Assembly: GCF_011694515.1 (NCBI RefSeq)
Contig: NZ_CP050192.1
Location: 4,596,527-4,660,526 of the forward strand
DNA: 64,000 nucleotides
Origin: Mycobacterium sp. DL592
GTDB lineage: Bacteria > Actinomycetota > Actinomycetes > Mycobacteriales > Mycobacteriaceae
Direction: 5' to 3'
Position 1 is the first letter of the stretch. Every line of letters begins with the position of its first letter. Both the position numbers and the translations under genes were made by a program. Positions 26,832 to 47,754 of this stretch are shown in pieces. The notes under the pieces were generated by a model, which did not search any database, was not told where the DNA came from, and saw only the letters and a list, made by a program, of their open reading frames with translations.

Positions 26832-26838
26832 AATTGGG

Positions 26839-28011
26839 TCAGCCATTTCCGTTGCTGGACCACTTGTCCAGCACAGCGCGGGTATCCGGCCCCGCCGTGA
26901 CCCGCTGCACATAGTGCCCCTCGGTCGTCGCGAGCTGCGCATGCCCGAGCTGGTGCTGCGCGGCCTCAACACCGAGTCCGTCCCGGACCACCGTCCCGAC
27001 GGTGCGTCGGAAGCTGTGCGGGGTCACCCACTTCAGATCCTCGTGTGGCGCGAGCGCTTCCCGCAGCGACGACCGGATGTTCGACAGACTCACCAGGCCG
27101 CCGTCCCGGTTCTTGAGCACCGTGCCGTCCGGTCCAGTGACGCCGAACAACTCCGCGAGCACATGGGCGCCGAACTCGGGAAGTGTGACGGTGTGTGCCG
27201 GTGCCCGCCCCTTGCGCTCGTCCTGACGGTGCAACGGTTTTCCGCCCACCCTTCCGGCGTCGACGACGGTTCCCGCGACGGTCACGGTTGGTGGAGTGCC
27301 GAGCAGGTCAACATCGGCCCATCTGATCGCCAGCACCTCCCCGGGCCGCACTCCGGTCGCCGCGAGCAACTCCACGAACGCCGGCAGCATCCGGCCGCGC
27401 CGCGGCCCCGGGCCCGCATGCTCGCACCAGACCTTGACCGCTTCGCGCACCCGGGTGAGTTCCATCGCGGTGAGTGCGCGCGCCGGTTTACGCTCGGTCT
27501 TGGCGGTTCTGGTCTCGCGCATCGGATTGTGCTTCACGACGTCGAACCGGGCGGCCATGCCGTACATGCCCGACAAGATGATTCGCATGTAGATCGCCGC
27601 CGACGATGGCAACGCTTTCAGATGAGCGTCGGCACGACTGGTCGCCAACTCACCGATGCGCAGCGAGCCGAGTTGCTGCTCACCGTGCAGCCGCCACGTA
27701 TCCCGGTACAGAGTCGCGGTGCGCTCGCCGATCCGATCCTCGGCGATCTTCGCTGGCAGCCACGCCTCGAATAGCTCGGAAAGTGTTGTCCGACGGTTGA
27801 TCACACCGGTCGGCTCCCCAGCCGCCAGCTCCGCGGCGATACGTCGTTTCAGCTCCCGGCGGGCGTCCTCGGCGGACTTCCGTGACGATGCCTCCCGCTC
27901 ACGCAGCTTCCCGCTGTGCAGTCGGACATAAGTTGTGGCGTAGAAGATTTCACCGCGCCGAGTGTCGGTGATCTTGCCATGCTCGCCAGGGGAGAGGCGC
28001 TGTCTAGGCAT
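26839..28011 (-). CDS. int: Tyrosine integrase of the element
   Basis: A 390-residue phage integrase. Residues 1-60 resemble an arm-binding domain, about 65-160 the core-binding SAM-like domain, and about 180-375 the catalytic domain: R in T-G-V-R-P-G-E-V, K in the beta-hairpin region, H-S-F-R-R, L-G-H-A-Q and the nucleophile in G-H-Y-V-Q. It is transcribed toward attL, its stop 80 bp from the core. Its ATG lies inside the 3' end of the repressor gene (8-bp overlap), so integrase and repressor form one leftward operon. It should catalyse insertion at tRNA-Gly. Confidence 0.93.
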   Translation of the reverse strand: MPRQRLSPGEHGKITDTRRGEIFYATTYVRLHSGKLREREASSRKSAEDARRELKRRIAAELAAGEPTGVINRRTTLSELFEAWLPAKIAEDRIGERTATLYRDTWRLHGEQQLGSLRIGELATSRADAHLKALPSSAAIYMRIILSGMYGMAARFDVVKHNPMRETRTAKTERKPARALTAMELTRVREAVKVWCEHAGPGPRRGRMLPAFVELLAATGVRPGEVLAIRWADVDLLGTPPTVTVAGTVVDAGRVGGKPLHRQDERKGRAPAHTVTLPEFGAHVLAELFGVTGPDGTVLKNRDGGLVSLSNIRSSLREALAPHEDLKWVTPHSFRRTVGTVVRDGLGVEAAQHQLGHAQLATTEGHYVQRVTAGPDTRAVLDKWSSNGNG

Positions 28012-28999: not shown

Positions 29000-29325
29000 C
29001 TGTACAGCCCCGGGCCGCCGACACAATCGACTTGGCTGCTCGACGTGAGCACAAGATCAAGATCGAGTTCCAGGCGGTCATCTCTGGCTGGGACGACTCG
29101 GTCCAGTGTGAGATCACGACCAACGCCGGCTGGCAGTGCTCACGCTCAGCCCAGTGGCGCGTTGATGCTCACGGGTGCGAGCGACGCTTGATGTGCACTA
29201 TCCATCTGCGACATTGGGAGCATCGAATAGAAGCGGTCCTGCATGCGGGTCAGAGCACTCAATGCGGCATCTGCGGAAGGTGGTTCAGAAGTGTCGACGC
29301 TATCCGGACGGCAGCGAGGCTATGA
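28996..29325 (+). CDS. Small putative zinc-binding protein
   Basis: A 109-residue protein from a GTG start with AAGGAG upstream. Cysteines and histidines are spaced as C (37), C (47), C (60), C-T-I-H (66-69), then C-G-I-C (91-94), suggesting one or two zinc sites. No enzyme motif. Its stop overlaps the next start (ATGA). Proteins of this type are frequent in actinophage early regions; the role is unknown. Confidence 0.65.
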   Translation: MTVQPRAADTIDLAARREHKIKIEFQAVISGWDDSVQCEITTNAGWQCSRSAQWRVDAHGCERRLMCTIHLRHWEHRIEAVLHAGQSTQCGICGRWFRSVDAIRTAARL

Positions 29326-30362
29326 GCGCCAACGATCTGAGTCGAGCCCGCGTCGCACGACGAAAGGCCAACAGCCTCAGACTAAAGCTGGTTCGGCGCG
29401 GTGATGTGTTCTGGCTACGCGACGAGACCGGCGGCCTGCTGCTAAAGGGCGACATCTCAAGGCTCGAAAACTATCTCGCTGAGCGATTCGTGGCACGCCA
29501 ACCGGGACCGGCGGCCCACCGCATTCCAGAGGCCTGGGCACCGATGATCACGGACTACTGCCTTGAACTCGCTGCCGCGGGACAGACCGCACCAACTATC
29601 CGCGCCCGCCGACTCGGACTGGCCCGCATAGCCCGCGGCCTCGGTGTGCCGCCCGAAGACGTAACCGGCGACCAGTTGAAGCATTGGTTCGGCGGCCAAA
29701 CCCAATGGGGTCTCAACACCCGTCGCCAATACCGTTCTGTGGCGCGTGGCTTCTTTTCCTGGGCATACAAGACCGGCCGCGTAACCGACTATCTCGGCGA
29801 TCATCTTCCCAAGGTGCGTGAGTCGGTACCGTCTCCTCGCCCGGTACCCGACCAGATATGGCGCGACGCGCTGGCCGCTGCGGATGCGAGGGTCACGGTG
29901 ATGCTGCGCCTGTCGGCTGAGGCCGGGATGCGCCGGGCTGAGGTGGCCCAGGTCCACACCAACGATCTCGTCGACGGTGCTGGCGGAGCCCAACTGCTGG
30001 TGCACGGAAAAGGGAACAAGCAGCGGCTGGTGCCGATTAGCGATGAGCTCGCGTCGGTGGTGCGAGCCGGACCGGGCGGGCACACCCCGGGTCTGCCGGC
30101 CACGGGCTATCTCTTTCCGTCGCGGATCGAGGGCGTGCCGCTGACGGCCGAGTACGTCGGTGTACTCGTTGGCCGCGTACTTCCCGAGGCGTACTCCATG
30201 CACAAGCTGCGCCACCGGTACGCCACCCGCGCGTATCGCGGGACCCGTAATCTCCGGGCGGTGCAGCAGCTTCTCGGGCACGCCAGCATCGCCACGACTG
30301 AGCGCTACACCGCTGTCGATGACGACGAGGTCCGGGCTACTGCGATGGCGGCTGTGCTGTGA
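29322..30362 (+). CDS. Second tyrosine recombinase, XerC/D-like
   Basis: A 346-residue recombinase with an N-terminal SAM-like domain (about 65-160) and a full catalytic set: R in E-A-G-M-R-R-A-E-V, K in G-K-G-N-K-Q-R, H-K-L-R-H-R, L-L-G-H-A-S-I and Tyr in T-T-E-R-Y-T. The ATG at 29322 overlaps the previous stop (ATGA). It differs clearly from the integrase at 26839-28011 and sits inside the early operon, not at an end. It may resolve multimers, act with host dif or in replication; the second recombinase in so small an element is unusual. Confidence 0.9.
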   Translation: MSANDLSRARVARRKANSLRLKLVRRGDVFWLRDETGGLLLKGDISRLENYLAERFVARQPGPAAHRIPEAWAPMITDYCLELAAAGQTAPTIRARRLGLARIARGLGVPPEDVTGDQLKHWFGGQTQWGLNTRRQYRSVARGFFSWAYKTGRVTDYLGDHLPKVRESVPSPRPVPDQIWRDALAAADARVTVMLRLSAEAGMRRAEVAQVHTNDLVDGAGGAQLLVHGKGNKQRLVPISDELASVVRAGPGGHTPGLPATGYLFPSRIEGVPLTAEYVGVLVGRVLPEAYSMHKLRHRYATRAYRGTRNLRAVQQLLGHASIATTERYTAVDDDEVRATAMAAVL

Positions 30363-31487: not shown

Positions 31488-31662
31488 CAACGACGAATCG
31501 CACTGGGCCTTCTGGGAAGTCACCGCGAGTGGCGATCCGGGCCATCTCGGCGAAGACGAGCCCGAGGTGCGGCCGTTGTGCCGGAAGTGCACGAAGGAAC
31601 TGCCCGATGGCGACGACGGTCTCTGCGCGTTCTGCCGGTTGGTAGATGGGTCGTCCTCGTGA
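31471..31662 (+). CDS. Small zinc-ribbon protein
   Basis: A 63-residue acidic protein with C-R-K-C and C-A-F-C knuckles about 15 residues apart, a classic zinc ribbon. The ATG at 31471 follows GAAGGAG at 31456-31462. Such short ribbons are common before packaging and head genes of actinophages; the role is unknown. The frame at its end is followed by a GTGA overlap into a low-quality frame that I do not call. Confidence 0.6.
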   Translation: MTNPDDNDESHWAFWEVTASGDPGHLGEDEPEVRPLCRKCTKELPDGDDGLCAFCRLVDGSSS

Positions 31663-31687
31663 CCACCAACTTGCGCCACTTGGCAAC

Positions 31688-31760
31688 ACCCCCTCGAAAA
31701 TGTTCGGGGTGGGGGGCGGTAACGAGTCGCGACCAAGCTCACGACATTTTTTCCCGCGGG
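31688..31760. other. Candidate packaging (cos-like) region A
   Basis: A non-coding-looking stretch: CCCCTCGAAAATG, then TCGGGGTGGGGGGCGGTAAC, then GACATTTTTTCCCGCGGG. G-runs followed by a T6 tract next to C/G blocks resemble sequences at phage cohesive-end regions, and it lies between the early genes and the head genes where phages put cos and terminase. This is a resemblance only. Confidence 0.3.
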
Positions 31761-31788
31761 ACCAGAAACTTGCGAGGGCGGAGGTCGC

Positions 31789-31974
31789 GTGGTGAGGGTC
31801 AATGCTGCCAATGACATTGAGGCATCTGCGCGGCCAGAGGGCAACGGTCGCGTCCGGATTCGCGTGGGCGTGCACCGAATCACCGCAACACCAGCTGAGG
31901 CAATCGAATTCGCTCACCAATTGATCGCCGCCGCAGAAGAAATCAACGCCATGCAGGAGCCACCATGCCACTAA
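31789..31974 (+). CDS. Small protein, 61 residues
   Basis: GTG start with GGAGG about 5 bp upstream (31780-31784). The product (V-R-V-N-A-A-N-D-I-E-A-S) has alternating beta then a helix (A-I-E-F-A-H-Q-L-I-A-A-A-E-E). The family is unknown to me. It overlaps the next gene by 10 bp. Confidence 0.5.
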   Translation: MVRVNAANDIEASARPEGNGRVRIRVGVHRITATPAEAIEFAHQLIAAAEEINAMQEPPCH

Positions 31975-32213
31975 GAAACACCACCGACCTGTTGCAGCTG
32001 CGTTGGCGCACCGCGCAATGGATGCTCGCGGCAACGACGGGCGACAAAGAGCAGACGGCCGCGTTGTGCGAGGCCATGCGCATCGAGGGTGTCGACCTGG
32101 GCGACGTCCTCGACGAGACGACCCTTCTCATCCGCCAGTTCGGGCAACGGCCGACGGCCGCGCTGCGCGACGAGGTAACGCGGCTGTGGCTGAAATTGAA
32201 GGCTCGCCCGTGA
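31965..32213 (+). CDS. Small helical protein, 82 residues
   Basis: A mostly helical protein (L-L-Q-L-R-W-R-T-A-Q-W-M-L-A) with basic C-terminus. It overlaps its neighbours on both sides (10 bp and GTGA), typical of one polycistron. There is no known domain; its place before the head genes would suit a small terminase-like or DNA-binding role, but no motif supports that. Confidence 0.5.
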   Translation: MPLRNTTDLLQLRWRTAQWMLAATTGDKEQTAALCEAMRIEGVDLGDVLDETTLLIRQFGQRPTAALRDEVTRLWLKLKARP

Positions 32214-32608
32214 CGATTGAGCGAGTCGCCGGGATCTTACTTGAGCCCACCGACGCCCAGTATCTCCTCGACGCGTTCAACATGCTGTTACGCGATCGCC
32301 GACCATCAGCTCAGCTGAGCGATTTCATTGACCGGTTGCGGAGAACTGTTGCGAAATCTGGCGTTTCATCGCCCAATACTGGTGCAGACGCCAGAAATGT
32401 TGGCAATTGTGGTGATTCGTCGGACTATCGACCCTATGACGTGCTCACGACCGGCGAGGCTGCAGCCATACTCGGCATCACCGCCAACGGCGTTCGTGAT
32501 CTCGCGCGCCGTGGGCGGATACCAGCCCACCGGGCCGGGGGCAGTTGGCTCTACCCCGCGACAAGCATCGTCACCCTTGCTGAGAGGCGCGCAGCCAAGC
32601 GGGGGTAG
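32210..32608 (+). CDS. HTH_17 DNA-binding protein
   Basis: A 132-residue protein. The first 75 residues are helical and polar; residues 78-128 are a MerR/excisionase-type winged helix (L-T-T-G-E-A-A-A-I-L-G-I-T-A-N-G-V-R-D-L-A-R-R-G-R-I-P-A-H). The GTG at 32210 overlaps the previous stop (GTGA); an earlier in-frame start would run into that gene. Its location just before the capsid module suggests a late-gene regulator or a small-terminase-like DNA binder; this is inference. Confidence 0.75.
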   Translation: MTIERVAGILLEPTDAQYLLDAFNMLLRDRRPSAQLSDFIDRLRRTVAKSGVSSPNTGADARNVGNCGDSSDYRPYDVLTTGEAAAILGITANGVRDLARRGRIPAHRAGGSWLYPATSIVTLAERRAAKRG

Positions 32609-32610
32609 CC

Positions 32611-33168
32611 GTGGCTGACCTTCGCACGATCACTGGCGTCGAACTCATCCGCGTCGGCACCTGGGACGCCGCCACTGGCGAATGGACCGTCAGCGCGGAC
32701 GATCTCACCGCAGCGGTCAAAGCACACGATGCCGGGGTGCTGCGCAAACCGGTTTTGAAGCTCGGCCACGAAGATCCCCGTTTCGACGGCGGCCCCGCCC
32801 TCGGCCGAGTCGACAACCTCCGCACCGCCGACAACGGCCAGGCGCTCATCGGCGACTTCATCGACGTACCGAAGGCGATCGCGACGTTACTGCCGCGCGC
32901 ATGGCCCGACCGCTCGATCGAAGCCCTGATCGATTACGAGGCACCGGACGGCACCGTGTGGCCACTGGTCCTGACCGCCGTGGCGCTGCTCGGCGCGGTC
33001 GCACCCGCCGTCACCAATCTCGCCGAAGTCGCTCAGCTCTACGACGTCGCCGCCAAGCGGATCACGCTGCCGATGACTGCCCGGCCCGATACCCGCGCCC
33101 GCACTGTCGCGGTGGCCGCCGCCCGGCGCCGCCGCACCAACCGAATCACCATCAACGGAAAGGTCTGA
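32611..33168 (+). CDS. Capsid maturation protease-like protein (Mu gpI type)
   Basis: A 185-residue protein. V-L-K-L-G-H-E-D-P carries the conserved His; D-R-S-I-E-A-L-I-D-Y is the region of the catalytic Ser; V-A-L-L-G-A-V-A-P-A-V-T-N-L is the usual end of the protease domain in Mu I-like proteins. It should trim the head scaffold and capsid during assembly. The scaffold part normally fused behind it is missing and may be the product of 34471-34950. GTG start 2 bp after the HTH gene; next gene 1 bp on. Confidence 0.7.
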   Translation: MADLRTITGVELIRVGTWDAATGEWTVSADDLTAAVKAHDAGVLRKPVLKLGHEDPRFDGGPALGRVDNLRTADNGQALIGDFIDVPKAIATLLPRAWPDRSIEALIDYEAPDGTVWPLVLTAVALLGAVAPAVTNLAEVAQLYDVAAKRITLPMTARPDTRARTVAVAAARRRRTNRITINGKV

Positions 33169-33169
33169 C

Positions 33170-33562
33170 ATGTCGACCACGATCACCACCGGAGTCGGGA
33201 TCTACGCCCCCGGCGACAACATCACCGGCGAAGCAACCGGCACCATCGCAGCCAAGACCTTCCTCGCCATCAGCGGCGACCGATCGACCACCACCGGCGG
33301 CAACATCGCCGTCGTGACCGCCACCGCAGCCGGCCGGGTCTGCGGCGTGGCCCGCAACAGCGCCGCGGCCGGAGAACTCGTCACCATCGCCCGCGGAAAC
33401 TCCCGCGTCGTCAAGGTCACCGCGTCGGGCACCATCGCCGCGTTCGCCGAGGTCCAGGTCGGTGCCAACGGCGCCGCCGTAACCAAGACGTCCGGTATCG
33501 CGGTCGGCTACGCGCTCACCGGTGCCAGCTCCGGCGCCGACGCCGAAATCTCGCTCTACTGA
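33170..33562 (+). CDS. Capsid decoration/cement-like protein
   Basis: A 130-residue beta-rich protein made of Gly, Ala, Thr and Val with turns such as G-V-G-I-Y-A-P-G-D-N and a long run of beta strands. Length, composition and position directly before the major capsid gene fit small head decoration proteins (DUF2190/gpD-like). It would sit on the capsid surface. Starts 1 bp after the protease-like gene. Confidence 0.65.
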   Translation: MSTTITTGVGIYAPGDNITGEATGTIAAKTFLAISGDRSTTTGGNIAVVTATAAGRVCGVARNSAAAGELVTIARGNSRVVKVTASGTIAAFAEVQVGANGAAVTKTSGIAVGYALTGASSGADAEISLY

Positions 33563-33576
33563 AAGGGAATTGACCA

Positions 33577-34458
33577 ATGCCAAGTGCACTCTTACCGTCA
33601 CTGAGCGGCCGCCAGCTCACCGTCGACGTCGCGCTCAACCAGCCGACCATCATCCGCAACCGCATCGCGCAGCTGATGGACGACCAGATCGTTCTCGACA
33701 AGCTGTTCCACGGATTCGGCGCCAGGGTGGAAGGCGGCGGAATCATCTACAGCGTCGTCCAAGCGTCGGACTTCTACACCAGCGACGTCGAAAAACGTGC
33801 ACCCGGAGGCGAATACAAAGTCGTCGAGGGTGTCGACCCCGACCCGAAACTCGCCGTCGTCGCCGACTGGGGCGGCCGCTTTCAGGTGACCGATGAACAG
33901 CGCATCCGCAACGCGGTGTCCTACCTCGACCAGCAGAGCACGCAGCTGGCCAACACCCTGGCCCGCAAGCTCGATATCGCCGCACTCGCCGCCATCGAAG
34001 CCGCGATCGACAGCGCCAACACCGTCACGGGCAACAACTGGGGCGCTCAAGTGTTCGTCGGCCCGCTCGCCAGCATCACCGCCAGCGCCGCCCGACCAAC
34101 CGCCGACTTCTCTGCCGCACAACTGAAATCGGATCTCCAGGAACTCGGCGTCAAACACAACCTGCTGATCGTGCACCCCAACGAGGCCGCCGCACTACGC
34201 ACTGCGTACGCCGAAAACCTTGACGACATGCTCAAGTCAGCCGGGCTCGAACTATTCGCCAACCCGCGGATGACCGCCGGCACAGCCTATGTCTGCGAGC
34301 GCGGCCAGGTCGGCACCGTGGGATTCGAGTTCCCGCTCAACGTCCATGCCTGGCCCGATCCCGCCACCCGATCAACATGGGTGCAGGGATTCGTGGTACC
34401 CGCGTTCGCCGTTGACCGTCCGTTCGCACTCAAGAAATTGACCGGCCTCGCCGGATAG
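33577..34458 (+). CDS. Major capsid protein, HK97-fold type
   Basis: A 293-residue protein with the look of actinophage major capsid proteins: N-terminal arm (L-N-Q-P-T-I-I-R-N-R-I-A-Q-L-M-D-D), G-G-G-I-I-Y-S-V-V-Q, W-G-G-R-F-Q-V-T-D-E-Q, a long spine-like helix (L-D-Q-Q-S-T-Q-L-A-N-T-L-A-R-K), and A-domain strands H-N-L-L-I-V-H-P-N-E-A. Ribosome-binding site AAAGGGAATTG. It would form the shell of the element's own particle. It is the clearest structural gene, flanked by protease-like, decoration and scaffold-like genes. Confidence 0.85.
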   Translation: MPSALLPSLSGRQLTVDVALNQPTIIRNRIAQLMDDQIVLDKLFHGFGARVEGGGIIYSVVQASDFYTSDVEKRAPGGEYKVVEGVDPDPKLAVVADWGGRFQVTDEQRIRNAVSYLDQQSTQLANTLARKLDIAALAAIEAAIDSANTVTGNNWGAQVFVGPLASITASAARPTADFSAAQLKSDLQELGVKHNLLIVHPNEAAALRTAYAENLDDMLKSAGLELFANPRMTAGTAYVCERGQVGTVGFEFPLNVHAWPDPATRSTWVQGFVVPAFAVDRPFALKKLTGLAG

Positions 34459-34470
34459 GAGACGACACAC

Positions 34471-34950
34471 ATGGCAATCACCCTCACCGACGATCAAGCC
34501 GCATCGCTGCTCGACATGCTCGGCCTGCCCCCCGACACGACCGATGTCGACACCATCCTCGCGACGGTGCAAGACCTCGCCAGCGACGAGCAGAGCGAGG
34601 GCGACATGGCCAAGCCCTCCGCCGTCGCCGCCGCCGCCAAGCGCATCGGCTTCGACGTCATCGAAACCGCATCGCTGGAATCCCTACGCCGCGACGCCAC
34701 CGAAGGCCGACAGATCAAAGCCGCGGCCGAGCACGCCAAGATCGAATCCACCGTCGACGACGCCGTACGCAAGGGCAAGATCACTGCCGCGCGCCGCAAG
34801 CACTGGGTCGCCCTCATCGGCGCCGACCCCGGCATGGCTGACGTGCTGGCGTCAGTACCCGACGAGACCGCGGTACCGCTCACCGCGGTCGGCTACGGCG
34901 TCGATAGCGAGTCAGGCCTACCCGCCGACACCACCGAGTGGTTCCGCTAA
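34471..34950 (+). CDS. Scaffold-like protein (Mu gpI C-terminal type)
   Basis: A 159-residue acidic, helical protein. L-G-L-P-P-D-T-T-D-V-D-T-I-L-A-T-V-Q-D-L, then I-E-S-T-V-D-D-A-V-R-K-G-K-I-T-A-A-R-R-K-H-W and A-D-P-G-M-A resemble the C-terminal half of Mu I-like protease-scaffold proteins. It would guide capsid assembly. In many phages this is fused to the protease or lies before the capsid gene; here it follows it by 12 bp. Assignment rests on pattern only. Confidence 0.6.
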   Translation: MAITLTDDQAASLLDMLGLPPDTTDVDTILATVQDLASDEQSEGDMAKPSAVAAAAKRIGFDVIETASLESLRRDATEGRQIKAAAEHAKIESTVDDAVRKGKITAARRKHWVALIGADPGMADVLASVPDETAVPLTAVGYGVDSESGLPADTTEWFR

Positions 34951-35254
34951 GCCCCCGACCTGCGGCAATAGCCAAGGTAGGGGTGAGCAGCTTTGCGCCC
35001 ATCGGCTGACGGGGCACCCGCCATATTTCTTGAGGACACCCCCCCGACCCAGTTCGGACCGCCAATCAGGAATTTTTTTTACGGGGCTCGAAAATCGACG
35101 GCCCGACCCTTTCCTGCACTGTCGACCCGGGGAGAGAAAGCCTGATTGTCCAAGCTCCAGGATTGGGCGAGTCGTCTCAGGTTCAGACCCGATAGTCGTC
35201 CATCGAGCCAATTAGTTCCCTGCTCAAATCGCGACGGGCATACGCTTTGACCCC
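34951..35254. other. Intergenic stretch with candidate cos-like region B
   Basis: No gene is seen here. At 35032-35105 the sequence has GAGGACACCCCCCCGACCC, a T8 tract (AATTTTTTTTACGGGG) and CTCGAAAAT, echoing the G/C-run plus T-tract pattern and the CTCGAAAAT at 31692-31700. It could be a packaging site, a terminator region after the capsid operon, or decayed sequence. Confidence 0.3.
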
Positions 35255-35800
35255 ATGACCGTTGGAGATTGGATCAGCCTGGCTGGTGTCGTGGTATCTG
35301 CTGGGTCTGCTGTGTGGGCAGTGATGTCGGCAGTCCGCGCCAGGAAGGCCGAGGCCGCAACAGACGGCTACCGGGCAGCGGCTGAAGAGCACTCAAAGCG
35401 GGCGGTCAAGGCTGCCGAGGAGGCCGCAGCTGCTCAACAGCAGTCCGCAGCCGCAGCCAAACGCGCCGCCGATGCCCTTGAGGCACAGAACAGGCTCTTG
35501 GCTGAGCAAGCATCCGCCGCGGAGCGGGTTCCCTGGCGTATCGAACACAGGCAGGGCGCTACATGGGATCTCTGGAACGACAGCGCCACGCCTAAATTCC
35601 ACGTCAAGATCTCTGGTCCAGGCGTGAGCAAGAACAAGACGCCAGCCACCATCGCCCGCGTCGACGGCCGAGGATCGCAGCCCTTTTGGGGCAACACGTC
35701 GTATGGGGCTGAAATGCGCGCGAACGTTAGATGGCGAGCGGCGGACGACCAAGCAGCCCCCGAGCTCGAGTGGTCCGGAACCATGCCAGCGGAGCACTAG
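35255..35800 (+). CDS. Membrane-anchored coiled-coil protein, satellite cargo
   Basis: A 181-residue protein: one N-terminal membrane helix (about 6-27), then an Ala/Glu/Lys/Gln-rich coiled coil (about 28-90), then a small beta-type domain (W-R-I-E-H-R-Q-G-A-T-W-D-L-W-N-D). The last part resembles domains often seen in phage and satellite cargo of unknown role. It is separated from the head genes by 300 bp and probably has its own promoter. A defence or superinfection role is a guess from position. Confidence 0.6.
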   Translation: MTVGDWISLAGVVVSAGSAVWAVMSAVRARKAEAATDGYRAAAEEHSKRAVKAAEEAAAAQQQSAAAAKRAADALEAQNRLLAEQASAAERVPWRIEHRQGATWDLWNDSATPKFHVKISGPGVSKNKTPATIARVDGRGSQPFWGNTSYGAEMRANVRWRAADDQAAPELEWSGTMPAEH

Positions 35801-36262
35801 AACACATACCGGGTGTTGTCAGATATTGGCGTCGAATCCGACCTGCAATTCCCTTTGGTGCACGCAGTATCGTGAGAAGCTCCGGAGATGGCATTCCAGG
35901 CATACACCTACGGGACGACTCCGCCCCGAGAATACGGCGATGAAGACGAGTACGAATTCCTCGACGGAGGAGTGCTCGTGATCCGGGAGATTGGAAAGGG
36001 GGCAGTCTTCTACGCGCCTCACAAGTGGGACCAGATCGTCGCCGAACCAGGTCATCTTCCCGGGCGTACCGGCGGCGCAGCCGACGTGTTGGGCACCATC
36101 TACTGAAACGGAACGATTCCCGGCTCTACCTACCTCGCGACCCGCAAGTTGCCGCTCGATCCAAAGCGTCAAAGAGGATCAGCTGTTCGTGATGGCCGCT
36201 CTGCCCAACGCCGACGCGGTCACGGAGATCGTCCGGAACGCGCGCAGCGGACTAGAACACAT
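35796..36262 (+). repeat. 12-bp direct repeat ACTAGAACACAT, two copies
   Basis: ACTAGAACACAT lies at 35796-35807 and 36251-36262, each preceded by CAGCGG (with three extra bases in the first copy). The copies flank the small gene at 35888-36106, as if this segment had been duplicated or exchanged as a unit. Confidence 0.5.
35888..36106 (+). CDS. Small acidic protein, 72 residues
   Basis: A short protein with an acidic patch (E-Y-G-D-E-D-E-Y-E-F-L-D) and beta-type rest (G-G-V-L-V-I-R-E-I-G-K-G-A-V-F-Y-A-P). It lies between the repeated 12-mers. No family known. The 294 bp that follow contain no convincing gene, only a short open remnant ending at 36266. Confidence 0.4.
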   Translation: MAFQAYTYGTTPPREYGDEDEYEFLDGGVLVIREIGKGAVFYAPHKWDQIVAEPGHLPGRTGGAADVLGTIY

Positions 36263-36400
36263 TTAGGTCGGTCGAGCAGCCAAACGGCTGCGTCTCACAT
36301 GCGCAACGCTTCCCACGACCACGTCGACAAGAAAAATTGGCCGGCCAGGTCCCGCGTCGATGCGCCCGGTCATTCCATTGATTTGCGACACTGCCAAACC

Positions 36401-37183
36401 ATGGCCATTGATTTCGCCGGGTTGATCCAATCAAACACGGCGCCGCGCGCCGAGTTCGCCTACGTCGATGACAGTGGCGATCCCGGTATGGCCAATGGAA
36501 GTGCCACCTTCGGCCTCGGTTGCGTTGTTGTCCCGTTGGACCACTGGACGGTTCGATTGGACGTCTTAGTCGAGATGCGCCGCCTTATCAAAGACACCTA
36601 CCGCATCCGCTTTCGTGATGAGGTGAAGGGCGAATGGCTCGTGAACGTAAAAAAGCACTTCCGCGAGCAGAAACTCGGAGACGGCCAATTACGCGATATC
36701 TATCGCCGACACCTCAACATATTGCCGATCGTCTCTTCGGCAGCCTTCGCGATTGTGATCCGCAAAGACGAGATTCTCGATCGGTCAAAGGATCCCGAGG
36801 CTCTCGCTTGGGAATTTCTGTTGCAACGGTTGCGCATGCGTTCACGCGGGACCTCCGCGCCGATCGTCGTTCTCCACGACCAGGGCAGCCGTGACAAAGA
36901 GCTGCGCAAACACGTCCGCCGGTTCCGCCGGCACACTTTCAATCCACTAGGCCAACATGCTGAGGCGCCGCTGATCGTCGAGGATCCGATTCCGCGCGAC
37001 TCCCAGCACTCGTACTTTGTGCAGTTGGCCGACCTGTGCGCTTACGCGGCTACCCGAAAGGTTATTCCGGCCGGTGGCCGCCGCCGCAGCGTGTGCTCAG
37101 AACAGATGTGGGATGAGGCTGGCGCGGCCCGCCTGAGCGAGGTATCGAACTCACGCAACGACGGCATCGTCGTGTGGCCGTAA
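36401..37183 (+). CDS. DUF3800 protein
   Basis: A 260-residue protein. A-E-F-A-Y-V-D-D-S-G-D at about 16-26 is the hallmark start of DUF3800, an RNase H-like family of unknown activity; D in the V-L-H-D-Q-G region (about 165) and the late Q-L-A-D-L-C-A-Y-A motif (about 219) complete the acidic set. Members are frequent in phage and island cargo, and some are tied to anti-phage defence. The ATG at 36401 is the start nearest the domain. It is the last gene of the element, followed by a terminator hairpin. Confidence 0.75.
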   Translation: MAIDFAGLIQSNTAPRAEFAYVDDSGDPGMANGSATFGLGCVVVPLDHWTVRLDVLVEMRRLIKDTYRIRFRDEVKGEWLVNVKKHFREQKLGDGQLRDIYRRHLNILPIVSSAAFAIVIRKDEILDRSKDPEALAWEFLLQRLRMRSRGTSAPIVVLHDQGSRDKELRKHVRRFRRHTFNPLGQHAEAPLIVEDPIPRDSQHSYFVQLADLCAYAATRKVIPAGGRRRSVCSEQMWDEAGAARLSEVSNSRNDGIVVWP

Positions 37184-37203
37184 AGGTCCTCAGAAAAGTG
37201 AAG

Positions 37204-37227
37204 GGGAGGCCCCACACGGGGCCTCCC
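37204..37227 (+). terminator. GC-rich terminator hairpin after the DUF3800 gene
   Basis: GGGAGGCCCC (37204-37213) and GGGGCCTCCC (37218-37227) form a perfect 10-bp stem with loop ACAC, 20 bp after the stop. Only TTG follows, so termination may be Rho-assisted or the hairpin may act from both sides. Confidence 0.65.
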
Positions 37228-37591
37228 TTGACGGCGGGCCCAGGGGCCTCCATGCGGGAGGTTGGGTCCACAAGTACGGAGTTTAGACAAGGTCAACGAC
37301 GAAAATAAGCAATTTCATCCACAAGGCGTGTCGATTTACTCACAACTTGTACACAAGTTATCCCCAGCATGGGCCGTTCGTTGCAGCGACGTGGGATCGG
37401 CCGAGTGCTGAGGGACCGGTCGGAGTCGATCCGCAGCACAGTCCCCTCTTTGCAGGCAATCCGTAGTTTCCCCGTAGAAACGGCCGCATCTTGCGGCGTA
37501 CTTGCCCGTATCTCAGCGTGCTGATCAACATCGAAAAGTGTTGCATTGCAATACTTTCACGGATACCGACGGACGCAGGCAGACGCGTGGG
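37228..37591. other. Right-end non-coding region of the element
   Basis: No gene is seen. It holds an inverted repeat AACTTGT-AC-ACAAGTT at 37345-37360, a nearby GTTATCCCC resembling part of a DnaA box, and the candidate arm-type site GTAGTTTCCCCGTA at 37463-37476, matching the left one with one mismatch. These fit integrase or excisionase binding near attR. Confidence 0.45.
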
Positions 37592-37634
37592 TCCCAAGCT
37601 GAATACGCGGGTTCGATTCCCGTCATCGGCTCCA
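37592..37634 (+). repeat. attR core
   Basis: A 43-bp copy identical to 26717-26759: the 3' part of the tRNA only, without a 5' half, so it is not a second tRNA gene. The host sequence resumes just after it; the next host gene ends 33 bp away. Confidence 0.95.
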
Positions 37635-38875: not shown

Positions 38876-40129
38876 ATGGACAACGACCGACACCAGAAAC
38901 ATCGCTACCGCAACAACGCGAAGGCCGTCGAGACTGGCAACCCCTCCTGGCAGGCCGCGGCTGACAATCTCTTGCTGGACAACGTCGTCCGCTACGTCGG
39001 CAACGACCGGGTCGAACGAATCAGCGACGGGCACCGCTTTGTCAACATGGTGTCCTGCTCCTACCTCGGGTTGCACACCCATCCGTGGGTTCTGGAAGGC
39101 GCCCGCAACGCGATCGAGTCGGAACAGACCATCACGCTTCCCGTGTCGCGCCTGCGTATCCGGCTGTCCATCCTCGACGAACTCGAAGCCGGCCTCTCGC
39201 AGCTGTACCGCGCCCGAAGCGTTGCCGCACTGTCGGCGTCGACGGCCAGCGCAGCTGTCCTGCCCCTGATCGCCTCCGGTCACCTGACTGATGACGGCAA
39301 GCCGCGCGTCATGCTCTTCGACAAGTTGAGCCACTTCTCGCTGAACTACGTCAAACCCATCTGTGCTGACGAGGCACCGGTCTACACGTGCCCGCACAAC
39401 GACCTCGACTACATCGAGGACATGTGCAAGAAGCACGATCGGGTGGCCTACGTCGCCGACGGCGCATACTCCCTGGGCGGCGTTGCGCCGGTGAAGGAAT
39501 TGATGGAACTGCAGGACCGCTACGGTCTGTTCCTGTTCTTCGACGACTCCCACTCCTTGGCTATGTACGGCCGCAACGGTGAGGGCATCGTGCGCTCACT
39601 GCTGCCCAACGACCTCAATCCGCTGACCATCGTCGTCGCGTCTCTTGGGAAGGCCTTCGGTGCCACCGGCGGTGTCATCATGCTCGGACCCGAGAAGCAC
39701 CACGACGTTTTGATGCGATTCGGCGGCCCGCTGGCGTGGTCGCAGGCCCAGAACGGCCCGACGATCGGCGCCTGCCTGGGGTCGTTGCGGGTGCACAACT
39801 CGCCGGATCTCGCACTGCGCCAACATCAGTTACGCAGCAACGCGGCCCTGTTCGACAGCATGATCGCCACCCCGCAGGCTGGCCTGGACACCGCGATTCG
39901 AGTGGTCGAGATCGGCGAGGAAGACAGAGCGATCGAGGCGTCGAGCCGAATGCTCGAAGCAGGCTTCTACACCTCAGCGGTCTTCTTCCCCGTCACTGCA
40001 AAGGGCCACGCCGGCCTGCGGGTCATGTTGCGCGCCGACAATGATCCCAACGACATTCGCCGATTCTGCGAGAGCGTCGGCGAGCTCACCGGATCGAGAT
40101 CGGCAGACTTGGTGGGCACTTCGCTATGA
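38876..40129 (+). CDS. Alpha-oxoamine synthase family enzyme
   Basis: A 417-residue PLP enzyme of the BioF/KBL/SPT/CqsA family, which joins an amino acid to an acyl-CoA with loss of CO2 to give an alpha-amino ketone. Visible: N-M-V-S-C-S-Y-L-G-L substrate loop at about 53, D-D-S-H-S-L-A-M-Y-G-R-N-G-E-G at about 224 with PLP Asp and His, and S-L-G-K-A-F-G-A-T-G-G with the PLP lysine at about 258. ATG with AAGGAG. It is too far from biotin genes to be BioF by context. It is the first gene of a five-gene operon and overlaps the next by 4 bp (ATGA). Confidence 0.88.
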   Translation: MDNDRHQKHRYRNNAKAVETGNPSWQAAADNLLLDNVVRYVGNDRVERISDGHRFVNMVSCSYLGLHTHPWVLEGARNAIESEQTITLPVSRLRIRLSILDELEAGLSQLYRARSVAALSASTASAAVLPLIASGHLTDDGKPRVMLFDKLSHFSLNYVKPICADEAPVYTCPHNDLDYIEDMCKKHDRVAYVADGAYSLGGVAPVKELMELQDRYGLFLFFDDSHSLAMYGRNGEGIVRSLLPNDLNPLTIVVASLGKAFGATGGVIMLGPEKHHDVLMRFGGPLAWSQAQNGPTIGACLGSLRVHNSPDLALRQHQLRSNAALFDSMIATPQAGLDTAIRVVEIGEEDRAIEASSRMLEAGFYTSAVFFPVTAKGHAGLRVMLRADNDPNDIRRFCESVGELTGSRSADLVGTSL

Positions 40130-41046
40130 GTCACCAGCAACCTATGCAGCACAACATGTTTCGTGCAATGTTGATGACGAGTTCGATCGACCCGGAGCGG
40201 TACCGATTCGCCCTGCACTCCGGCGCCGACATCTGCACCGTCGACCTCGAAGATGCGGTTCCGCCTGACCAGCGGGTCCAGGCGCGCCGTCAGGCGGCGG
40301 AGGCGCTGGCGTTCCCTTCGCCACGTGCGATGCGGGGTTTGCGGATCAACAGCGTCCGCAGCGCAGACGGGCTGCGCGACATCCTGTGCATCATCGACGG
40401 CCAAGCGCGGCCAGACACCCTGCTGGTCCCCAAAGTGAACAGTGCCGAAGACCTCCTCATCCTCGACGAGCTACTCGGTGACCAGCTCGCCGGCATCACG
40501 TTCCTGGCGACGATCGAGACCGCCGCGGGCCTGGCGGCCGTCGAAGAGATCGCCGGGGCCACGCCCCGGCTGCGGGCGCTGGTGTTCGGCGCCGCCGACC
40601 TCAGCGCAGAACTGGGCGTCTCGATGGAATGGGAGCCACTGCTGTATGCGCGCTCGCGCATCGTCGCGGCTGCCGCCGCGGGGGGCATCGCAGCCATCGA
40701 TGCGCCGACATTCGACCTGCACGACGACCGGGCGCTGCTGATCGACGTGAGGCGTGGACGGAATGTGGGCTTCACCGGCAAGGCCGCGATCCACCCCCGC
40801 CAAGTGCCGGTGATCAACGCGGGCTTCACCCCTACGTCGACCGAGGTAGACCGTGCCCGCCGCATCGTTCGCCTGGCCGATGACCATTCCGGCAGGATCG
40901 CCGTCCTCGACGGCCAGATGTTGGGCCCACCCATGGTCAATGCAGCGAACCGAATCCTGCAGCTAGCCAATGTCTTTAACGCGCATAACGACCGAGATTC
41001 CTACGAGCCGATCGGAGCCGCACATGGACCACGTTCGCGCGTATAG
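40126..41046 (+). CDS. HpcH/HpaI (CitE-like) aldolase/lyase
   Basis: A 306-residue TIM-barrel enzyme of the citrate lyase beta/malyl-CoA lyase family: V-D-L-E-D-A-V-P-P-D-Q-R at about 43 (metal-site Asp/Glu region), L-V-P-K-V-N at about 102, A-T-I-E-T-A-A-G-L at about 128 with the metal Glu, and F-G-A-A-D-L at about 154. The family breaks or makes C-C bonds between acyl-CoA and glyoxylate, pyruvate or oxaloacetate; M. tuberculosis Rv2498c (citramalyl-CoA lyase) is a relative. The CitE-plus-MaoC pair here mirrors the Rv2498c-Rv2499c pair. It overlaps both neighbours (4 bp and 23 bp). Confidence 0.88.
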   Translation: MSHQQPMQHNMFRAMLMTSSIDPERYRFALHSGADICTVDLEDAVPPDQRVQARRQAAEALAFPSPRAMRGLRINSVRSADGLRDILCIIDGQARPDTLLVPKVNSAEDLLILDELLGDQLAGITFLATIETAAGLAAVEEIAGATPRLRALVFGAADLSAELGVSMEWEPLLYARSRIVAAAAAGGIAAIDAPTFDLHDDRALLIDVRRGRNVGFTGKAAIHPRQVPVINAGFTPTSTEVDRARRIVRLADDHSGRIAVLDGQMLGPPMVNAANRILQLANVFNAHNDRDSYEPIGAAHGPRSRV

Positions 41047-41548
41047 GCAGGTGGGCCCACGCCGGTGGCGGGAATCCCGCGGCGTGACATTCGAGGACGT
41101 CGAGGTCGGGACGATCGTCGAGCACCGGCCTGGCCGGACCATCACCGAAGCCGACAACACCTGGATGTCTCTCCTGTCGCTCAACCTGCATCCGCTACAC
41201 ATCGATGCCGCCTACTGCCAGAACACGGAATGGAAGAAGCCATTGGTGTCCAGCCTGGTGACGTTGTCCATCGTCTCGGGAATGAGTGTGCAGAGCACCA
41301 GCGCCCGCGGGCTGGCCAATCTTGGCTGGGACAGCATTCGTCTGGTCGCCCCGGTGTTCATCGGCGACACGCTCTACGCGGAGACCGAATACCTCGACAA
41401 GCGACTGTCGGAGTCTCGCCCGCACCAGGGGATCGTCACCTGCACCACGCGCGGTGTGAAGGACGACGGCACCGTCTTCATGACCTGTCAGCGTTCGTTC
41501 CTCCTACCCACTCGCGACCATGAACTCGAAGTTCATGCGACGTACTGA
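41024..41548 (+). CDS. MaoC-like hydratase, mesaconyl/itaconyl-CoA type
   Basis: A 174-residue hot-dog fold hydratase. I-T-E-A-D-N followed by L-N-L-H-P-L-H-I-D at about 44-64 is the form found in mesaconyl-CoA or itaconyl-CoA hydratases, in place of the D-x-N-P-x-H of ordinary R-hydratases. W-D-S-I-R-L-V-A-P-V-F-I-G-D-T-L is the usual late strand. The ATG at 41024 has GGAG upstream; an alternative at 40970 would overlap the lyase further. It probably adds or removes water on a methylmalyl- or citramalyl-type CoA made or used by the lyase next to it. Confidence 0.85.
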   Translation: MDHVRAYRQVGPRRWRESRGVTFEDVEVGTIVEHRPGRTITEADNTWMSLLSLNLHPLHIDAAYCQNTEWKKPLVSSLVTLSIVSGMSVQSTSARGLANLGWDSIRLVAPVFIGDTLYAETEYLDKRLSESRPHQGIVTCTTRGVKDDGTVFMTCQRSFLLPTRDHELEVHATY

Positions 41549-41564
41549 CTGCGGAGGAGGACGC

Positions 41565-42827
41565 GTGCCGGACAAACGATACGTCGTTCTGGTCGACAGC
41601 TACGGCACCATCGGAACCGAACTGGCACAGGGCTTCCGGGACGCAGGCTTCACGCCACTGCGCGTCCAGAGCACGCCGCAGGTGCCGGCCGGGCTGCGCG
41701 GACTGGCCGACAACTACCCCTATTCGCACAACATCGTCCACCACGGCGATCTGGCTGCAACAGTCGCAGAGTTGGCACCCTTCCATCCCGTCGCTGTCGT
41801 CGCCGCCACCGAACCCGCGGTTGAGCTCGCCGACGCACTCAGCGAGACCTTCCACCCGACAACCGGTGCGCCGACCAACGGCACGGCGCTCAGCGCCGCT
41901 CGACGCGACAAGTACCTGATGATCGAGCAGATAAAGCGCAGCGGCCTGCTCGGCGCCCGCCAACTCCTGGTGGACAGTGAGGAGCAATTGCGAGCCTGGC
42001 ACGCCGATATCGGTGGCATGGTCGTAGTCAAACCGCTGCGCAGTGCTGCGAATGACGGCGTGACGTGGTGCCGCAGCCCCGAGGAATCCGTCACCGCCTT
42101 CCGGCTGCTCAACGGTCGCACAGGCGCTCTGTCGCAATCGAATGACGGAGTGGTGGCCCAGGAATGCGTCGTCGGCGCTGAATACACTGTCGATACCGTG
42201 AGCCGGGACGGCATTCACCACGTCACGGACATTTGGCAGAGTCACCGCATCTGCACCAGCGGAATTCCTGACCTCCTGGTTGCCTGGCGCTTGCTGGCAG
42301 CGACTGGACAGGTGCAAGGCCAGCTGGTGCCCTATACGTTCGCCGTACTCGATGCGCTCGGGATCCAGCATGGGGCCGCCCATACCGAGGTGAAACTGAC
42401 CACCGACGGCCCCTGCCTGATCGAGGTGGGCGCCCGCATAGCGGGAGCGAATCTGCCGGCGACAGCACGCCTGGCCACCGGCCGATCCCAAGTCGACTGG
42501 ACCGTGGACGCCTACGTCCGGCCCGGCAAGTTCGTCGAAACAAGCGGGAAACCCTATGCGCTACATCAGCATGTCGCGCGGACCGTCATGGTCGCGCCCC
42601 ACAGTGGAAGATTGATCTCCTACCACAGCCTTGAAGTCATCAAAGAACTGGAGAGTTTCCACGATATGCAGGTGCGGGTGAATCCCGGCGACCACTTGCC
42701 GGTCACCACCGATGACCTCACCTACCCCGTCTTCGTCACCCTGGTGCATGAGGTCGACGAGGTGGTGTCCCGCGACTTGTGGACCCTCCGCTACCTGGAT
42801 GGCCCGAGCTTCTACCAAACCGCTTAA
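41565..42827 (+). CDS. ATP-grasp ligase
   Basis: A 420-residue ATP-grasp enzyme. N-terminal Rossmann-like half (V-V-L-V-D-S-Y-G-T-I-G), then D-K-Y-L-M-I-E-Q-I-K-R-S-G lid, M-V-V-V-K-P-L-R-S-A at about 148, G-V-V-A-Q-E-C-V-V-G-A-E-Y at about 199, and the metal/ATP motif H-T-E-V-K-L then L-I-E-V-G-A-R-I-A-G at about 284-306. Such enzymes form amide or ester bonds through an acyl phosphate, for example L-amino acid ligases. GTG start with GGAGGAGG. It likely couples an amino acid to the product of the upstream enzymes. 16 bp after the hydratase gene. Confidence 0.88.
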   Translation: MPDKRYVVLVDSYGTIGTELAQGFRDAGFTPLRVQSTPQVPAGLRGLADNYPYSHNIVHHGDLAATVAELAPFHPVAVVAATEPAVELADALSETFHPTTGAPTNGTALSAARRDKYLMIEQIKRSGLLGARQLLVDSEEQLRAWHADIGGMVVVKPLRSAANDGVTWCRSPEESVTAFRLLNGRTGALSQSNDGVVAQECVVGAEYTVDTVSRDGIHHVTDIWQSHRICTSGIPDLLVAWRLLAATGQVQGQLVPYTFAVLDALGIQHGAAHTEVKLTTDGPCLIEVGARIAGANLPATARLATGRSQVDWTVDAYVRPGKFVETSGKPYALHQHVARTVMVAPHSGRLISYHSLEVIKELESFHDMQVRVNPGDHLPVTTDDLTYPVFVTLVHEVDEVVSRDLWTLRYLDGPSFYQTA

Positions 42828-42840
42828 AGAGAGATCGACC

Positions 42841-43539
42841 ATGCCACTGTGTCTATGCGAGTCCGACACCGACGAGAGGACAGCTGACGGCAGCCTGATC
42901 GAGCTGTACCGTCGCATGCCGAAAGCTCTCGAGGCCAACGACATTCACGCTCTACTAGCACCGTACAGCTCGGTGTTGGAGCTGGGGTCGGGGACGGGGA
43001 GGATCGCCGATCCGCTGGCCGCGCTGGGCCATCGGGTCACCGCGGTCGACGACTCCGATGAGATGCTCGCCGAGATTCGGCTTGCGCATCCGGTGTGCGG
43101 TCGCATCGAGAATCTTCACCTGGCAGAGCGATTCGATGCTGTCGTCTTGGCGACCAACCTCATCCATTACCGCGGTGAGGACCTCCGGCGCGAGGTGCTG
43201 GCGGCGATGACCCGTCACCTCAAGCCAACCGGCAAGGCCATCATTCAATGGAAGCCGCCTTCGTTCTGGGCCGCCCGTCCGTCAGGCTGGGTGGGGACGA
43301 CCGCACTCGACGAGGTCACCGTACGGGTAGCCATCCACAACGGTGCCCGCGAGCCCGGCGGCCTCGTCGACGGCGAATACACGTTGATCGCTGACGGGAT
43401 GGAGTTGAGCCAGTGCTTCCATCTGGAGGTCTTGGCCGTTGAGGATGTACGCGACGCTCTCCGCGGGGCAGGCCTGCGGCTGACCAGTGCCGAGCCGGAA
43501 ACGATGGAATGGCTGGAGGCGGTACCCGCGCGAAGTTGA
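42841..43539 (+). CDS. SAM-dependent class I methyltransferase
   Basis: A 232-residue protein with motif I V-L-E-L-G-S-G-T-G-R-I at about 44, the acidic V-T-A-V-D-D-S motif II at about 67, and V-L-A-T-N-L-I-H-Y at about 100 as motif IV. The C-terminal part forms the substrate half. It probably methylates the cluster product on O or N. It follows the ligase by 13 bp and is the last gene of the operon; no terminator is evident, and 170 bp later comes the convergent exported protein. Confidence 0.85.
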   Translation: MPLCLCESDTDERTADGSLIELYRRMPKALEANDIHALLAPYSSVLELGSGTGRIADPLAALGHRVTAVDDSDEMLAEIRLAHPVCGRIENLHLAERFDAVVLATNLIHYRGEDLRREVLAAMTRHLKPTGKAIIQWKPPSFWAARPSGWVGTTALDEVTVRVAIHNGAREPGGLVDGEYTLIADGMELSQCFHLEVLAVEDVRDALRGAGLRLTSAEPETMEWLEAVPARS

Positions 43540-44901: not shown

Positions 44902-47754
44902 TTACCGGACGAGCTCACCCATCTGAGCCGGCCGCTGTCGCACCAGCTGCGGCCACCAGAACCAGCGGCCGAGCAGCGCAGCGATCGCCGGGGTCATGAA
45001 CGCCCGCACCACCAATGTGTCGAACAGCAGACCCATACCGATCGTCGTCCCGATCTGGGCGACCACGATCATGGAGCTGACCGACATCGCCATCATCGTG
45101 AACGCGAAGACCAACCCGGCGGAGGTTACGACGGACCCGGTGCCGCCCATGGCCCGGATGATGCCGGTGTTGATGCCCGCCGGAAGCTCTTCTTTCATGC
45201 GCGACACCAGCAGCAGGTTGTAGTCCGCACCGACTGCCAACAGGATGATCACCGCCATGGCCATCACCATGAACTGCAGGTCGATGCCAAGGATGTGCTG
45301 CCAGAGCAGGATCGACATGCCGAAGGACGCACCGAGCGAGAGCGCGACGGTTCCCACGATCACCGCTGCTGCCACGATGGCGCGCGTGATCAACAGCATG
45401 ATGATGAAGATCAGGGTCAGTGCGGCCACCCCGGCGATCATCAAGTCGTAGGCGTTGCCCAGTTCGAGGTCCTTGAACGCCGAGGCGGTGCCCCCGAGGT
45501 ACACCTTGGAACCCTCCAACGGCGTTCCTTTAATGGCCTCGAAGACGGCGGACTTGATGTCGTCGATCCGATTGATGCCGGCTGCGGACAGCGGATCGTC
45601 CTCGTGGGAGATGATGAACCGCACGGCGTGGCCGTTCGGTGAGATGAAGTTCTTCATGCCGCGTTTGAACTCGGCGTTGTCGAAAATCTCCGGCGGCAGA
45701 TAGAACGTGTCGTCGTTATGGGAGTCGTTGAACGCCTTGCCCATTGCCGTGGAGTTCTCGCTCATCGCCGCCTGCTGATCCTGCTGGCCGGCCTGCGTGG
45801 CCTGCATGGTCAGCATCATGATCCGCATTCGCTTCATGCTCTCGACCGTCGGAACCATCATCGCGGCCATCTGCGGCATCAACGCGTCGAGCTTGTGCAT
45901 ATCGGGCAGAAGTGACTGGATGTCGTCGGCCATGGTGTCGATACCGTCGAGGCTGTCGAAGGTCGAGCGAATAGACCAGCACAGCGGGATGTCGAAGCAG
46001 TGCGGTTCCCAGTACAGGTAATTGCGGATCGGCCGGAGAAAATCGTCGAAATCGGCTATGTGGTCCCGCAATTGGAGGATGTCGGCGGCCATCTCGTCAG
46101 TCTTGACGACCATGTTGTGCATGGTGCCACTCATCTGTTCCATCAACCCGATCATCTGGGTCATGTTGTTGATGGTGTCCTGCATGATGTTGCCCTGCAC
46201 GATCATGTCGGCCATGCGGTCTTGCAGGTACGAACGATTCATCGTCTGCATGACGTTGCCCATGCCGAGCTGGGCCGGGATCGTGCTGTACTTCAACGGT
46301 TTTCCGTCGGGCCGGGTGATCGACTGCACCCGCCCGATACCGGGAACCTTGGCCACGGCTTTGGCGATCTTCTCGATCACCAGGAAGTCGGCCGAGTTCC
46401 GCAGGTCCTGATCGGTCTCGACCATCAGGATTTCCGGGTTGAGCCGGGCGATCGGGAAGTGCCGTTCGGCGGCGGCGAATCCCTCGTTGGCCGGCAGGCT
46501 GTCGGGCAGGTACTTACGGTCGTTGTAGCTGGGTTGGTAGCCCGGCAGCATGATCAGACCGACGAGCGCGACCATGATGGTCAGGAACAGCACCCAGCCC
46601 GGCCAGCGGACGACGATGGCCGCCAGCTTGCGCCAGAACCGGATTCGCATGGCCCGCTTGGGTTCGAGCATGCCGAATCGGCTGGTGACGGTGATCATGG
46701 CCGGCCCCAGGGTGAGCGCCACGAGGACGGCGACCACCATGCCGACTGCCATCGGAACACCGAGCGTCTGGAAGTAGGGCAGCCGCGTGAACACCAGGCA
46801 GAACGTCGCGCCGGCGATCGTCAGGCCGGAAGCCAGCACCACGTGGGCAGTGCCCCGGAACATCGTGTAGTAGGCGGTCTCTTTGTCTTCGCCGACCGTT
46901 CGCGCTTCTTGATATCGCCCGATGAGGAAGATCGCGTAGTCGGTGGACGCGGCTATCGCCAACGTCACCAAGAGCTGAGTGGCGAATGGCGACAAGCCGA
47001 TCAGTTGGTGGTAACCGAGGAACGCGACCACTCCTCGCGTCACCGACAGGCCCAGGATCAGCATCACCAAGACCATGAGGGTGGTCAGGATCGAGCGGTA
47101 GAAGAACAACAGCATGAAGATGATGACGCCGACGGTGGCGAATTCGATGACCCGCAGGCTCTTTTCGCCGACGTGCTGTTGGTCGGCCTGCAGCGCCGGC
47201 CCGCCGGTCACGAAGACCTTCACGCCCGGCGGCGGGGTCATGTTCGCGACGATCTTCTGGACCGCCTCGACCGACTTGTTACTCAGCGGCTCGCCCATGT
47301 TGCCGGCCAGGTTCACCTGGACGTAGACGGCCTTGCCGTCGCCGCTCTGGGCGCCAACCCGGGTCAGTGGATCGCCCCAGAAGTCCTGGATGTGCTGGAC
47401 GTGGGTGGTGTCGGCCCGCAGCTTGGCCACCAGCTCGTCGTAGAACTTGTGGGCGTCGTCCCCCAGGGGTTGGTCACCCTCCAGGACGATCATCGCCGAG
47501 CTGTCGGAGTCGGACTCCTCGAACACCTTGCCGACCCGCGTCATCGCGACGATGGACGGGGCTTCCTTCGGCGACATCGAGATCGCCCGCATCTTGGCGA
47601 CATCGTCGAGTTGGGGCACCGTGACGTTGAGGACCGCGATCAGCGCGATCCAGCCCAAGATGATCGGGATGGACAGCCGGCGGATCCACTTGGCGACGCC
47701 GCTTCGACGCGCCTCGTCAGCGCGGATCTCGGTGTCGATCGTCGGAGCACTCAT
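44902..47754 (-). CDS. MmpL-family RND lipid transporter
   Basis: A 950-residue MmpL protein with twelve expected membrane helices in two halves and two large outer loops; the second loop contains a long coiled-coil stretch (about 510-680). The proton-relay Asp-Tyr pairs are present in A-A-S-T-D-Y-A-I-F and A-V-G-A-D-Y-N-L-L. Length and the long loop fit the MmpL4/MmpL5-like branch, which exports lipids, siderophores or drugs with an MmpS partner; no mmpS is adjacent. The cargo is unknown. ATG start at 47754. It is followed by a small secreted protein gene. Confidence 0.93.

Follow-up and report, generated by a model that had tools for sequence, protein, structure and literature searches.

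The 64,000-nucleotide stretch of the Mycobacterium sp. DL592 genome analysed here (the window; positions 4,596,527 to 4,660,526 of contig NZ_CP050192.1) contains a five-gene operon encoding an alpha-oxoamine synthase, a CitE-type lyase, a MaoC-type hydratase, an ATP-grasp ligase and a methyltransferase. We found that this operon is likely to encode a ketomemicin (ktm)-type pathway for a small ketomethylene pseudopeptide. By analogy, our best reading of the product is an N-methylated ketomethylene pseudopeptide, possibly unsaturated. An initial annotation had described five tightly packed genes of these families, and our analysis confirms this (38876-43539, plus strand).

In ketomethylene pseudopeptides a ketone takes the place of a peptide bond, and some of these molecules inhibit proteases. 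For comparison we used a locus, L114, that holds six ktm-type genes in one stretch (lyase, synthase, dehydratase, PGM1-type ATP-grasp, MDR dehydrogenase and amidinotransferase). We take the L114 genome to be that of Salinispora tropica CNB-440. According to the available text of PMC11943689, this is a ktm strain, and ktm clusters encode an aldolase (KtmA), a pyridoxal phosphate (PLP)-dependent C-acyltransferase (KtmB), a dehydratase (KtmC), an ATP-grasp ligase (KtmD), an amidinotransferase and a dehydrogenase; their products are pseudotripeptides containing a ketomethylene bond.

The first three enzymes of the mycobacterial operon are homologues of the ktm core. The lyase is 42% identical to the L114 lyase over 273 residues, the synthase 49% identical to its L114 counterpart over 410 residues, and the hydratase 55% identical to the L114 dehydratase over 173 residues. 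The operon also shares with the ktm clusters of Micromonospora, Streptomyces and Salinispora the presence of an ATP-grasp ligase and the use of stand-alone enzymes without a nonribosomal peptide synthetase (NRPS). However, its host is a Mycobacterium, its ligase belongs to another ATP-grasp family (best blastp piece against the L114 ligase, E 1.5) and it has an extra methyltransferase. A tblastn search with the L114 amidinotransferase (KtmE), which covered the window but no other part of the genome, gave no match at E 1. A linked dehydrogenase (KtmF) is also absent: the sole match in the window better than E 0.5 was an MDR-type stretch at 62735-63607 (29%), and the best KtmF-type match in the host genome (37%) lies far from the operon.

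The initial annotation knew of no described pathway with this set of genes. Because the first three enzymes are ktm core homologues, that claim was too strong, and ktm clusters contain the same four kinds of enzyme; the five-gene set as such, however, was described in no paper found in our literature search. Likewise, a known characterised cluster, which the initial annotation thought would refute its proposal, was found only for homologues of the first three genes.

Applied to the five genes, ktm chemistry, part of which is general background, gives the following predicted pathway. The lyase, acting in the condensing direction, would join an alpha-keto acid with acetyl-CoA, or with a closely similar acyl-CoA, to form a 2-substituted malyl-CoA, from which the MaoC dehydratase would remove water to leave a 2-substituted fumaryl- or itaconyl-type CoA. 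The PLP synthase would combine this product with an amino acid, which gives up its carboxyl group as CO2, and release CoA, yielding H2N-CHR1-CO-C-C(R2)-COOH, a dipeptide with CO-CH2 (or CO-CH=) in place of CO-NH. The ATP-grasp ligase would then attach an amino acid via a true amide bond, and the methyltransferase would methylate an amino nitrogen. Every reaction, the order of the ligase and methyltransferase steps and both side chains are predictions. The order first suggested for the chemistry (lyase and hydratase making an acyl-CoA, the synthase joining it, the ligase and methyltransferase finishing it) is the one that the ktm precedent would predict.

The synthase matched NCBIfam PRK07505 at 507 bits (cut-off 342), and the column of its Lys259 was invariant in 20 aligned rows. 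The Arg/Glu/Asp motif columns of the lyase (13 rows) and the Asp/His columns of the hydratase (15 rows) were likewise invariant, which agrees with the intact family motifs noted at the outset; these residues are catalytic in their families.

The initial annotation had invoked CqsA-like logic for a small amino-ketone metabolite or signal. On such logic the product would be a small alpha-amino-ketone signal or autoinducer decorated by the ligase and methyltransferase. CqsA is of the same synthase superfamily, CqsA chains occur among the PDB matches (55 bits), and response regulators neighbour the synthase in two loci on rhizobial plasmids that have no CitE. However, the autoinducer-synthase model NF005526 (CqsA/LqsA) gave 82.4 bits against a cut-off of 428, which argues against this logic, and the annotated direct neighbours of the operon in other mycobacteria (fadE4, f29 and php) include no regulator, with TetR and YbjN further out. 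Far closer to the synthase than CqsA is its best PDB match, 8xha (285 bits), which the available text of PMC11906848 identifies as Alb29 of S. albogriseolus. We consider a signal of this kind highly improbable.

The lyase matched HpcH_HpaI at 118.5 bits and the hydratase matched MaoC at 67 bits. Both families are shared with RipC/Ccl and RipB/Ich, and the best equivalog models for the two proteins were RipC and RipB, while the top PDB match of the lyase, 3qll, is named citrate lyase. On this basis the operon could be a block for breaking down itaconate or citramalate (Ict-Ich-Ccl/Rip) to which unrelated genes have been added. However, both proteins fell below the model cut-offs (RipC 240 of 375 bits; RipB 215 of 340), as did the KtmA-like protein (242) and the ktm-type dehydratase (184) of L114. 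The five genes include no CoA-transferase domain, the rest of the genome not being searched for one, and the conserved partners of the lyase and hydratase are biosynthetic: the synthase, the ligase and the methyltransferase. We consider a degradation block very unlikely.

The ligase met the cut-off of PRK07206 (320.2 bits; cut-off 302) and matched PDB 30vh, an "L-amino acid ligase", at E 1e-47; the dapdiamide synthase DdaF model NF041595 gave 189.7 bits, short of its cut-off of 840. From our reading of the annotations, relatives of the ligase occur inside apparent small natural-product clusters. Fold matches of the methyltransferase were led by CypM, DesVI, TylM1, YunM and CcbJ, mainly N-methyltransferases, and by closest fold it is probably an N-methyltransferase as well. 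It had no tblastn match in L140-L142, three loci with related ligases, and on these loci the idea that the two genes form a constant pair outside the operon was rejected.

The ATP-grasp enzyme might instead close the ketomethylene precursor into another scaffold, such as a lactam or pyridone formed from the amino-ketone and the carboxylate. From its structure, an unsaturated 5-amino-4-oxo acid would be one amide bond away from a six-ring lactam, and no reductase is linked to the operon. However, the nearest matches of the enzyme are amino-acid ligases that act between molecules (30vh, DdaF), and we regard this outcome as unlikely.

For the ketomethylene pseudopeptide pathway, the lack of a linked dehydrogenase leaves two predicted outcomes: reduction of the C=C bond by a mycobacterial enzyme encoded elsewhere, or a product that stays an enone. 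The best MDR protein of the host is 43% identical to a Holophagales enzyme. It has equals of 42-46% in all eight mycobacterial genomes tested, six of them without a synthase match, and for this reason it looks like a housekeeping enzyme rather than a dedicated ene-reductase encoded elsewhere in the genome. Such a housekeeping-type MDR could perform the reduction. It is possible, though doubtful, that the pathway stops before this step, giving an N-methylated pseudopeptide with the ketone conjugated to C=C (a 4-oxo-2-enoic unit).

We found the five genes in the same order in all ten other mycobacterial loci read. These were from M. szulgai, M. gastri, M. sp. UM_CSW, M. sp. 1081908.1, M. genavense, M. 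angelicum, M. sherrisii and three more, which we tentatively take to be M. lacus, M. basiliense and M. seoulense (G029, G505 and G669). In these ten loci fadE4 lies beyond the synthase in the opposite direction and php lies behind the methyltransferase (in L138 and L139 the neighbours were identified only through query matches). The block sits elsewhere in the host genome (5.10 Mb, one contig), away from the fadE4/php setting: fadE4 and f29 had no match near the operon, and the only php match (71% identity) may be a different gene and lies some 142 kb past the window. Within the genus the operon is patchy: a synthase relative at E 1e-100 or better was present in just 10 of 396 genomes, its own included.

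All five genes are under purifying selection. Median dN/dS was 0.16 for the synthase, 0.22 for the lyase, 0.09 for the hydratase, 0.18 for the ligase and 0.25 for the methyltransferase (Nei-Gojobori; 44-54 pairs each, pairs with dS under 0.1 not counted; dS near 1 for many pairs). The M. genavense locus (L011) was dropped for the synthase and ligase, each of which carries an in-frame stop there; its lyase, hydratase and methyltransferase matches have none. From these two stops, the block seems to be decaying in M. genavense. The recurrent order and low dN/dS show that the operon is more than a chance grouping. The initial annotation had asked for conservation of the block in other genomes, and its absence, which would have spoken against the proposal, is not what we observe.

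To place the operon more widely, we used at least 80 named loci from a scan with two synthase motifs; because the loci were drawn in this way, locus counts describe synthase relatives only. A gene was scored as present if tblastn matched it at E 1e-8 at any place in the locus, mostly within about 8 kb, and short contigs may hide genes. Synthase, CitE and MaoC matches shared a locus in 81 of 99 loci (counted before L138 and L139 were added), and in 44 of these they lay within 3 kb on a single strand. No synthase relative turned up when viral contigs were scanned with the motifs. On plasmids the best matches were 49% for the synthase (Rhizobium lusitanum), 45% for the lyase and 52% for the ligase.

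Trees were quick ones with SH-aLRT support and a midpoint root. Ornithine-cyclodeaminase (OCD)-type rows were thinned to a third in the synthase, lyase and hydratase trees. The synthase tree has 73 rows and omits L011 and L006, which have a stop each, as well as L121 (a two-piece match with the best piece too short); rows with stops and short rows were dropped from the lyase and hydratase trees too. The eight mycobacterial synthases form one clade (support 100, starred) within a starred 48-row set (95) that also contains all eight ktm-type, the Myxococcaceae, the acidobacterial and five OCD-type rows. Outside this set are 11 Chromobacterium- or Burkholderia-type synthase rows without CitE. Inside it, the mycobacterial synthases share one half with acidobacterial and alphaproteobacterial rows (88); the other half (87) holds the ktm rows. 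Because they occupy different halves, the mycobacterial and ktm synthases are best described as cousins. The mycobacterial rows are a single clade in the lyase tree, adjoining Myxococcaceae rows (86), and in the hydratase tree, adjoining a Holophagales row (91); these adjoining rows come from loci with an MDR match.

The nine Myxococcaceae clusters (L014, L016-L020, L023, L055 and L077) have the same trio in the same order, with synthases 52-56% identical to that of the operon. Unlike the operon, an MDR reductase match follows in eight of the nine (L018 has one on the opposite strand, about 5 kb away), and none has a ligase or methyltransferase match. Directly upstream of synthase-CitE-MaoC in L014, L016, L018 and L023 is a large gene of one similarity cluster, in which condensation, adenylation and carrier (NRPS) domains were read in L014 only. 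Such a gene would offer a possible route for ketomethylene units into longer peptides.

A further widespread arrangement, in many Streptomyces and Nocardia loci between L040 and L085 and in L116-L120, combines the synthase and CitE with an OCD-type protein and MaoC. Often present as well are a DmpG-like aldolase (in 26 of 99 loci) and an aminopeptidase P-like M24 gene (also 26 of 99), the latter perhaps a resistant target copy. In Chromobacterium sphagni (L086), the one locus read among those whose synthase rows lack CitE and fall outside the 48-row set, genes for biotin-dependent acyl-CoA carboxylase and an MFS-family gene (f11) adjoin the synthase in place of CitE and MaoC. Burkholderia, Vibrio and Rahnella loci contain genes of the same similarity clusters. 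The Chromobacterium synthase relatives differ from the operon in having no CitE or MaoC matches in their loci. Arphamenine, from Chromobacterium violaceum, is a natural product of the ketomethylene pseudopeptide class (PMC11943689, available text) and resembles the predicted mycobacterial product in a comparison by product class alone.

Gene coordinates are given in Table 1. The synthase and lyase overlap by 4 bp (lyase ATG at 40126; synthase stop ending at 40129). For the hydratase, the Met at 41024, where the alignments of the mycobacterial and Holophagales proteins begin, is probably the start, not 40970. For the ligase, the start is probably GTG 41565, which follows a ribosome site, GGAGGAGG, and not ATG 41520. 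With the revised starts the hydratase-ligase gap is 16 bp and the ligase-methyltransferase gap 13 bp.

Table 1. Features of the operon and of the neighbouring integrated element (positions within the window).
Feature	Position	Strand	Family or remark
Alpha-oxoamine synthase, KtmB-like PLP amino-acid C-acyltransferase	38876..40129	+	Aminotran_1_2/PRK07505
CitE/HpcH-type acyl-CoA lyase or aldolase, KtmA-like	40126..41046	+	HpcH_HpaI
MaoC-type dehydratase (hydratase), KtmC-like	41024..41548	+	Open reading frame opens at 40970; start by conservation
ATP-grasp ligase, PRK07206/L-amino-acid-ligase family	41565..42827	+	Open reading frame opens at 41520; GTG start likely
Class I S-adenosylmethionine methyltransferase, probably N-methyltransferase	42841..43539	+	
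Element: phage integrase gene	26839..28011		
Element: phage integrase gene	29175..30362		
Element: capsid-like gene	33577..34458		

A 10.9-kb element (26717-37634) is integrated at tRNA-Gly(ccc), its right end being a 43-nt perfect repeat (37592-37634). It was rejected as the carrier of the operon, which lies 1.24 kb outside the right repeat. Two exporter candidates were also considered and not adopted. The gene f29 (L007:5525-6541, minus strand) encodes a hydrophobic, probably multi-pass protein with no Pfam or NCBIfam match; it is divergent from the operon, was matched in nine of the ten other mycobacterial loci and was found in 1 of 61 genomes searched. It has no match in the host genome, and in L009 and L022 the stretches tried are interrupted by stops. 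The second candidate, an MmpL gene (44902-47754), is convergent with the operon and was not seen at the other mycobacterial loci.

Judged by title and the start of the abstract, none of the ketomemicin papers found was about mycobacteria, most subscription literature lying outside the search, and no paper described a mycobacterial pseudopeptide biosynthetic gene cluster. The string "mycobacter" is absent from the available text of PMC11943689 and appears in PMC9239090 only in two reference titles. From its sequence, the operon is best called a variant ketomethylene-pseudopeptide pathway, found in a genus where it was not expected; its ligase is of a different kind, it lacks a linked reductase and it probably adds an N-methyl cap. 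Table 1 of PMC11943689, as available, reports three ketomemicins at 10 uM, two with at or below 13% inhibition of the enzymes shown and the third with about half inhibition of a few enzymes.

If our reading is correct, mycobacteria would be a further lineage in which such pathways can be predicted from genes, and the product would be a new class of small molecule for a genus better known for its lipids. The three-gene core also flags many more candidate clusters, in Myxococcaceae with the NRPS-type gene and in Streptomyces with the aminopeptidase P-like gene. A protease-inhibiting role for the mycobacterial product is plausible, but has to be read against the ketomemicin inhibition values given above. 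Should the product be unreduced, mycobacteria would make, and perhaps secrete, an electrophilic protease inhibitor that might act covalently.

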